A stretch of 64,000 nucleotides of DNA from Petrotoga mobilis SJ95. Its GTDB lineage: Bacteria > Thermotogota > Thermotogae > Petrotogales > Petrotogaceae. Each line of letters starts with the position of its first letter. Positions within the stretch are counted from its first letter, which is position 1. The stretch is taken from contig NC_010003.1 of NCBI RefSeq assembly GCF_000018605.1, positions 124,001 to 188,000 of the forward strand, in the 5' to 3' direction. Positions 60,541-62,754 of the stretch are shown here, piece by piece. The position numbers and the translations under genes are program-made. The notes under the pieces were generated by a model, which made no database searches, was not told where the DNA came from, and saw only the letters and a program-made list of their open reading frames with translations.

Positions 60541-60549
60541 TGTTATAAT
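60541..60549 (+). promoter_or_regulatory. Extended -10 promoter of the thiI-plsC operon
   Basis: TGTTATAAT, 46 bases ahead of the thiI start codon. Confidence 0.5.
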
Positions 60550-60594
60550 TTAGTTGAAGAAAATATTTTTTATAAATTATAAGGTGGCAAATGA

Positions 60595-61364
60595 ATGCTA
60601 TTTTTAGTAGTAAGGGTTGACGAGATCAGTCTAAAAAATAAAAATAAAATGTCTTTTATGCATAAACTTAAAAACAACATCCAAAGCAAAATTTCCCAAA
60701 ACTTCATTTTCAAGGTTAACAACAATAGAATATATCTAATTCCTCAACAAAATATGGGAATAACCGTTAAAGATATCGATACTCTAAAAAAGATTTTTGG
60801 AATACATTCATCTTCAATAGCTGAAAAAACTGAATTAAATATAGATTCATTTAAAAATAAAGTCTACGAAGTAGCAAAAAATCTCTTGAAAGCAACAATT
60901 ATAGTACTTTTAAAATAAACGTCAATAGAGCCAATAAATCTCTTCCCTACAACAGTCAAGAATTTGCTGGAATAATAGGTGAATTTATATTGAACAATTT
61001 CCCTAAACTAAAAGTTGACTTAAATAACCCGGAGCTTGATATAGAAATAGATATTAGAAAAGAAGGTACGATTATATTTGACAATCGTTTAAAAAGACCA
61101 AGCGGATTACCCATTGGTACATCTTCAAAAGATTTAACAAAAAACGGAACAATTAAATTATCCCAAAAATTCGCATTGTATAAAACATCTATTTTACCAT
61201 ACGAAGATTCATGTAGCGTATTTATACCTTCTAAACCTGCCACTAAATCAAATACAAATTACATAAAATCAATTGAGGATTCTTTACAACATCTAAGTAA
61301 ATTGGAAAAAGATGCTTTAGATGAAGTTAAAAAGTATAAGATTGAAGATAGTAAAGTCTCATAA
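60595..61364 (+). pseudogene. thiI: Decayed thiI (tRNA 4-thiouridine synthase): frameshift and loss of the PP-loop domain
   Basis: ATG 60595 has AAGGTGG 7 bases ahead and opens the ThiI N-terminal domain (VVRVDEISLKNKNKMSF) and THUMP start (to AKNLLK, near 60888). The frame then fails (TAA at 60916), but the next sense frame, one base back, carries on with NNYSTFKINVNRANKSLPYN, then EFAGIIGEF and GLPIGTSS, the rest of the THUMP domain; loss of one A in a run near 60888 explains this. Straight after GTSSK comes the family's C-terminus, ILPYEDSCSVFIPSKPATK. The whole ATPase part, with the SGGIDS PP-loop and about 170 residues, is missing. It cannot thiolate tRNA. Confidence 0.9.
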
Positions 61365-61429
61365 ATTGATCACTTTGAATCATAGTCTCATGTATCTTAA
61401 AGAAAAGGGAAGAAAAAGGAGGACAATTC

Positions 61430-62206
61430 ATGAAAAAGGTATTAGAAACAATAAAGGCAATATTCTTCACAATATGGTTAATTATCGGATTTCTCGGAGT
61501 TGTAATTGTATATGGAAGTTATGTGTTGATAAAAGCCAATATCTTGGAAAAAAGAAAGGGACACAAAGTCTCTCAAGAATATATTAGAAAGGTTGTATCT
61601 TGGTTTGGAAAAGTTACTTTTAAATTCTTAAATAGTAAGATTTCAGTTCATGGTGAAGAGAATATTCCTCAGCAAGGCCCTTATGTAGTAGTAGCGAATC
61701 ATCAAAGCCTTTTCGATATTCCTTTAATTTTAGGATATATATATCCCACAGCTTTTATTGCAAAAAAAGAGCTTTCTATGATTCCTATATTAGGAAATTT
61801 CATCAAAAGACTTGGCTCTATCTTCATAGATAGGAATAATTCAAAAAGTGGTGCTATAGCTCTTAAAAAATTTGCAAAAATATCTCAATCAGGGGAAATT
61901 ATAACTATTTTTCCTGAAGGAACAAGGAGTTTAGATGGTCAAGTAGGTGAATTTAAAAAGGGAGCTCTTTTAATCCCTTTTAGATATAATATAAAACTAT
62001 TACCTGTCACAATAGATGGAACTATCAAAATGAGCAAAAAAGGAAGCGTCTTTATCAAACCTTCGAATGTTAATCTATTCATACATGAACCAGTCGAGCC
62101 AAAACTTTTCGCTAGCGAAGGAGAATTAAGAGAATGTCTCAAAAGCATAATCAGCGAAAATATTACAAGCGAACCTCAACTAGCTTTAAAAGAAACAAGA
62201 GCGTAA
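61430..62206 (+). CDS. plsC: 1-acyl-sn-glycerol-3-phosphate acyltransferase
   Basis: A 258-residue membrane-bound acyltransferase that makes phosphatidic acid. One or two N-terminal helices (about 5-30) precede the catalytic NHQSLFDIP (the HX4D motif, about 88-96), then KKELSMIPILGNFIKRLGSIFIDR and the FPEGTRS motif (about 162-168). AAAGGAGGA lies 6 bases ahead of the ATG. It follows the thiI remnant by 65 bases and precedes the nuclease-family gene. Confidence 0.94.
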   Translation: MKKVLETIKAIFFTIWLIIGFLGVVIVYGSYVLIKANILEKRKGHKVSQEYIRKVVSWFGKVTFKFLNSKISVHGEENIPQQGPYVVVANHQSLFDIPLILGYIYPTAFIAKKELSMIPILGNFIKRLGSIFIDRNNSKSGAIALKKFAKISQSGEIITIFPEGTRSLDGQVGEFKKGALLIPFRYNIKLLPVTIDGTIKMSKKGSVFIKPSNVNLFIHEPVEPKLFASEGELRECLKSIISENITSEPQLALKETRA

Positions 62207-62235: not shown

Positions 62236-62754
62236 ATGAAAAAAGTAAGCAATGTTACTATGGGAATAGATAAAGTTTCAAATTCACCGATAGTTTTTTT
62301 AAAGGTAGAAGATACAAACGTTGTTGTACCAATATGGATTGGGCCATGTGAAGCTGGTGTTTTGGCTTTAATATTGAGAAACGAAGATTTTGAAAGACCT
62401 TTAACGCACGATCTCATTGGTAATATTATCGAACAACTTAAAGCTCAACCTATTAAGATAGAAATTGACCAATTCAAGCAGGATATTTATTACGCTAAAT
62501 TAGTCCTGAAAGATAGTGGTTCAAAAGAGATCTATATCGATGCCAGGCCTTCTGATTGCATAATTTTATCATTAAAAAATAACTTACCTATTTACATAGA
62601 CGAAGAAATAGTATCCGAACACGGTATTGAAGCTTCTTTTATAAACGCAGAAGAACAAAGCGAGTTCAGACAAGATATTGAAAACTTCGATATAGACGAA
62701 CTGAGAAGGAAGTTCGAAAATAAAAATAAAACTGAAGATGAAGATGACGAATAA
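62236..62754 (+). CDS. Bifunctional nuclease (DUF151) family protein
   Basis: A 172-residue protein. The BFN domain (about 1-135) shows VFLKVEDTNVVVPIWIGPCEAGVLALIL, RPLTHDLIGNIIEQL and IYIDARPSDCIILSLKNNLPIYIDEEI, the full family pattern. The family was named for a plant nuclease, and the T. maritima homologue has a known structure, but the bacterial role is not known. A strongly acidic tail (KTEDEDDE) ends the protein. AAAGGAGG ahead of the ATG. Confidence 0.93.
   Translation: MKKVSNVTMGIDKVSNSPIVFLKVEDTNVVVPIWIGPCEAGVLALILRNEDFERPLTHDLIGNIIEQLKAQPIKIEIDQFKQDIYYAKLVLKDSGSKEIYIDARPSDCIILSLKNNLPIYIDEEIVSEHGIEASFINAEEQSEFRQDIENFDIDELRRKFENKNKTEDEDDE

Follow-up and report, generated by a model that had tools for sequence, protein, structure and literature searches.

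ThiI, the tRNA uracil 4-sulfurtransferase, thiolates tRNA at position 8, and an effect of the resulting 4-thiouridine (s4U) in near-UV light has been described in enterobacteria (E. coli and Salmonella). The lineage to which the locus described here belongs is made up of thermophiles. In E. coli, s4U8 raises the melting temperature of tRNA, a value of 4.7 degrees being cited for tRNA-Ser in PMC9957541. The ThiI of T. maritima has a sole active-site cysteine, Cys344 (PMC4041423), and the role of ThiI in thiamine synthesis rests on a rhodanese domain (PMC5372745). A study of RudS (PMC11417400) mentions other prokaryotic groups that have no ThiI.

We analysed a window of 64,000 nucleotides from Petrotoga mobilis SJ95, whose genome is closed in a single contig of 2,169,548 bp. 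Profile searches and alignment to congeners identified positions 60595-61364 of the window as a thiI pseudogene (features in Table 1). The N-terminal ferredoxin-like domain (NFLD, 60604-60816; PF22025, 51.1 bits against a cut-off of 25) lies in frame 1, which aligns to positions 1-94 of TIGR00342, the NCBIfam model of ThiI, and the THUMP domain lies in the second frame, which spans 60870-61364; the matches to PF22025 and PF02926 thus bore out the preliminary description of the locus, which had placed the N-terminal and THUMP parts in two frames. Only the final quarter of the ThiI pyrophosphatase domain (PF02568, 19 bits) is left at the end of the second frame, as a stub that retains YEDSC, with the equivalent of T. 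maritima Cys344; in G013, the closest congener, YEDSC aligns with the YQDSC of PDB 4kr6. We compared the remnant with what is expected of a functional ThiI, namely one protein scoring above 264.5 bits with TIGR00342, an SGGxDS PP-loop motif, the NFLD and THUMP RNA-binding domains, and the active-site cysteine. The two pieces scored 35.4 and 87.6 bits, far under the cut-off, in contrast to the thiI that G013 carries at this position, a full-length match of 328 bits. The PP-loop motif is deleted in the remnant and kept in all four intact congeners, both RNA-binding domains score above their cut-offs in different frames, and the cysteine is present. Rfam gave no match at the thiI locus.

The lesions were defined by DNA alignment with the intact genes of four congeners (G013, G015, G016, and G017). 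An intact thiI was found at the same place in four of the five congeners searched, as frames of 402-407 aa that are open without stops, and the DNA identity of these genes to that of G013 was 82-87%. The apparent one-base loss noted earlier proved to be one A gone from an A-run. The deletion is exactly 139 codons long, corresponding to G013 residues 181-319, and removed the SGGIDS ATP-binding motif and, with it, some two thirds of the pyrophosphatase domain; its ends have 2 nt in common (AG, 61130-61131). The missing stretch, put at about 500 bases beforehand, is 417 nt in the alignment, and what had been called a clean loss of the PP-loop domain holds for the ATP-binding core, but not for the C-terminal part, of which about 50 residues with the YEDSC cysteine are kept. 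At least two disabling events had been postulated; the alignment revealed three lesions, the one not mentioned before being an early TAA, seven codons ahead of the ancestral stop TAG at 61383-61385.

Table 1. Features of the thiI locus and its downstream genes (coordinates in the window)
Feature	Position	Strand	Basis or detail
Extended -10 promoter-like element TGTTATAAT	60541..60549	+	TATG-n-TATAAT conserved in five congeners aligned
Ribosome-binding site AAGGTGG	60581..60587	+	Direct reading; same or similar purine-rich stretch at this place in congeners
thiI pseudogene, frame 1	60595..60918	+	ATG 60595, 107 residues, out-of-frame TAA 60916-60918
One-base loss, A6 run (A7 in G013)	60876..60881	+	Alignment to four intact congeners
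THUMP domain, second frame	60897..61076	+	PF02926, 53.8 bits, cut-off 20.6
Junction of 417-nt in-frame deletion	61129..61132	+	Alignment to G013, G015, G016, G017
C-terminal pyrophosphatase-domain stub and tail	61134..61361	+	PF02568 positions 147-195; alignment to PDB 4kr6
Early stop TAA (GAA in congeners)	61362..61364	+	Alignment
plsC-like acyltransferase gene, intact, next downstream of thiI	61430..62206	+	PF01553
Bifunctional nuclease-domain (BFN) gene, intact	62236..62754	+	PF02577

A search of the genome for an intact thiI, the check proposed in the preliminary description, was carried out with PF02568 and TIGR00342, and no intact second copy was found in the closed genome. Elsewhere in the genome, the matches to PF02568 were confined to a GuaA-like protein and to MnmA, the latter named by its NCBIfam match. 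The full-length ThiI model returned the remnant pieces and one further match, with no full-length ThiI among them. A second ThiI was rejected as the remaining PP-loop matches are MnmA, the GuaA-like protein, and TilS. PF01171 matched no protein of the genome other than TilS (G000:C1:926291-926830), and TtuA or TtcA was accordingly rejected as another tRNA thiolase, suggesting that both TtuA (s2T54) and TtcA (s2C32) are absent.

The upstream region of the remnant is preserved, as had been stated, with a promoter-like extended -10 element that is conserved in the congeners aligned and a ribosome-binding site; the pattern scan did not list the -10 element, which has a short spacer to an upstream TTGAAA. 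The genes thiI and plsC adjoin in 26 of 27 related loci, and plsC lies downstream in 25 of the 26 loci in which the order can be read (the G030 locus ends too close) and upstream in one (G018). The BFN gene follows plsC in 15 of 17 loci of the same family. This gene order suggests that thiI is the first gene of a conserved operon-like block that may be transcribed as a single unit, and the survival of the promoter and ribosome-binding site therefore needs no special explanation. On the simplest view, the downstream genes rely on this promoter and leader, which selection would therefore retain after the death of thiI.

The assembly of a further congener, G014, lacks thiI and plsC, and the stretch falls between two contigs: C27 ends (L036) a short way before the thiI promoter, and C8 starts (L070) inside the BFN gene. 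A loss shared with G014 was considered; the absence there may be a gap in the assembly or a real loss. The last ~60 bases of L036, compared with the matching intergenic stretch of L017, contain a short GC-rich stretch, CCTGCGCGCCCCTTAGCCCCGCAGCCCACCC, in the otherwise AT-rich intergenic region upstream of thiI, in which the congeners differ strongly.

The gene had been described as long dead, a view which the state of the remaining sequence does not support. Among the 32 residues that are invariant in 27 intact homologues drawn from two families, 31 are kept in the remnant and one is changed (F to L), and single intact sequences deviate at these columns about as often as the remnant does. No stops were found in the remnant beyond those of the lesions described above. 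In a codon model, dN/dS on the window branch was 0.28 (profile interval about 0.14-0.63) versus a background of 0.09, which is above the background (p = 0.003) and below 1, the neutral value (p = 0.005). The two control branches of intact thiI, G015 and G016, which are short, gave 0.21 and 0.42, and dN/dS of the plsC-like gene, whose frame is intact, is likewise raised on the window branch (0.15 vs. 0.05, p = 0.003); the relaxation signal is therefore weak when taken alone. The contrast with the sister G013 is clearer than the dN/dS excess, with 13 synonymous and 20 nonsynonymous codon changes found only in the window as against 24 and 3 found only in G013. If the window branch combines a constrained period with a neutral one, the latter would make up roughly a fifth of it and at most about 60%. 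The loss of thiI is thus probably fairly recent, as dated from substitution patterns.

A unitary pseudogene is a disabled gene whose orthologue is intact at the corresponding locus of close relatives, in a genome without a functional paralogue, and both features were found here. We consider it very likely that thiI is such a pseudogene and that its function was lost in the window's own lineage after the split from G013, with a small residual probability of a strain-specific or assembly event, one strain of the species having been available. The in-frame deletion took the ATP-binding core and would leave any product unable to adenylate U8, and the contraction of the A-run and the terminal stop add to the damage. 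The remnant may persist because it heads an operon-like thiI-plsC-bfn block that still requires this promoter and leader, and also because too little time has passed for its erasure. An artefact of assembly or sequencing, with the 417 nt lost by collapse and the single-A change being a homopolymer error, is highly improbable; homopolymer miscounts are indeed common and the locus is known from a single strain, but a collapse requires repeats at both ends, where only the shared dinucleotide was found, the genome was assembled as one contig, and the early TAA and the nonsynonymous excess relative to G013 are two more signs of decay.

The exact length of the deletion in codons, the retention of nearly all invariant residues, and the lower dN/dS on the window branch of the NFLD (0.18) and THUMP (0.21) domains versus the stub (0.35) would all fit a remnant that still yields a useful NFLD-THUMP RNA-binding protein, for example a non-catalytic tRNA-binding factor, with the frameshift bypassed by slippage or being a sequencing error. 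However, chance alone leaves one deletion in three in frame, the site of the frameshift is between NFLD and THUMP in a run of only six A, and no such remnant occurs in other ThiI-lacking genomes among the matches listed. Further, the pyrophosphatase domain is also the dimer interface, and U8 is positioned in the catalytic site of the partner subunit (PMC4041423). We give this possibility very little credence. It also seems very doubtful that the ThiI-lacking Thermotogota have substituted a different U8 chemistry or modification of the tRNA core for s4U8, or that an NFLD-THUMP remnant has been kept as a non-catalytic tRNA binder.

Under the preferred reading of thiI as a unitary pseudogene, s4U8 has likely been lost from the tRNAs, because an enzyme without the PP-loop cannot adenylate U8 (mechanism in PMC4041423 and PMC5372745). 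The preliminary description had also pointed to the synthesis of the thiamine thiazole, a link which finds no support here. The ThiI of G013 has no rhodanese domain, as is the case for the intact congener proteins of about 402 aa, and searches of the genus with PF05690 and PF01946 gave partial matches only, with no convincing ThiG or Thi4 among them; the best match of each in the window's own genome was read, and these matches are general nucleotide-binding or barrel proteins. A consequence for thiamine was rejected on these grounds, and an effect of the thiI loss on thiamine appears unlikely.

To place the loss in its phylum, ThiI was counted across 103 Thermotogota genomes; it scored above the cut-off in 75, and no full ThiI was present in 28, some of these absences falling in incomplete assemblies. 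Full ThiI is missing throughout families f7 (ten genomes), f6 (three), and f5 (two) and genus g26 (four genomes, of which two are single contigs). These counts indicate that ThiI absence, and with it absence of s4U8 synthesis, is recurrent in the phylum and, together with the loss in a thermophile lineage, suggest that these organisms can easily do without s4U8. As the absence of thiI is common in the phylum, the present case is a good example and no surprise. It is an ordinary pseudogene, of mild interest as a loss caught early, and a natural thiI loss beside sister species with the gene intact offers a way to ask how much s4U8 contributes to an organism of this phylum.

In comparison with the known enzyme (TIGR00342; T. 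maritima ThiI, PDB 4kr6), the remnant is alike in NFLD and THUMP sequence, domain order, and the C-terminal YEDSC block, and differs in lacking residues 181-319, including the SGGxDS motif, and in being split over two frames. With the other ThiI-lacking Thermotogota, such as g26 and f7, it shares a genome without full ThiI; among the matches listed, those genomes contain no N-terminal or THUMP remnant, whereas the genome of the window alone shows an N-terminal/THUMP wreck that can still be read and is not attributable to a contig split. The locus is a genuine unitary pseudogene, probably of recent origin, of a tRNA-modification gene that is dispensable, and adds one more case to a known kind.
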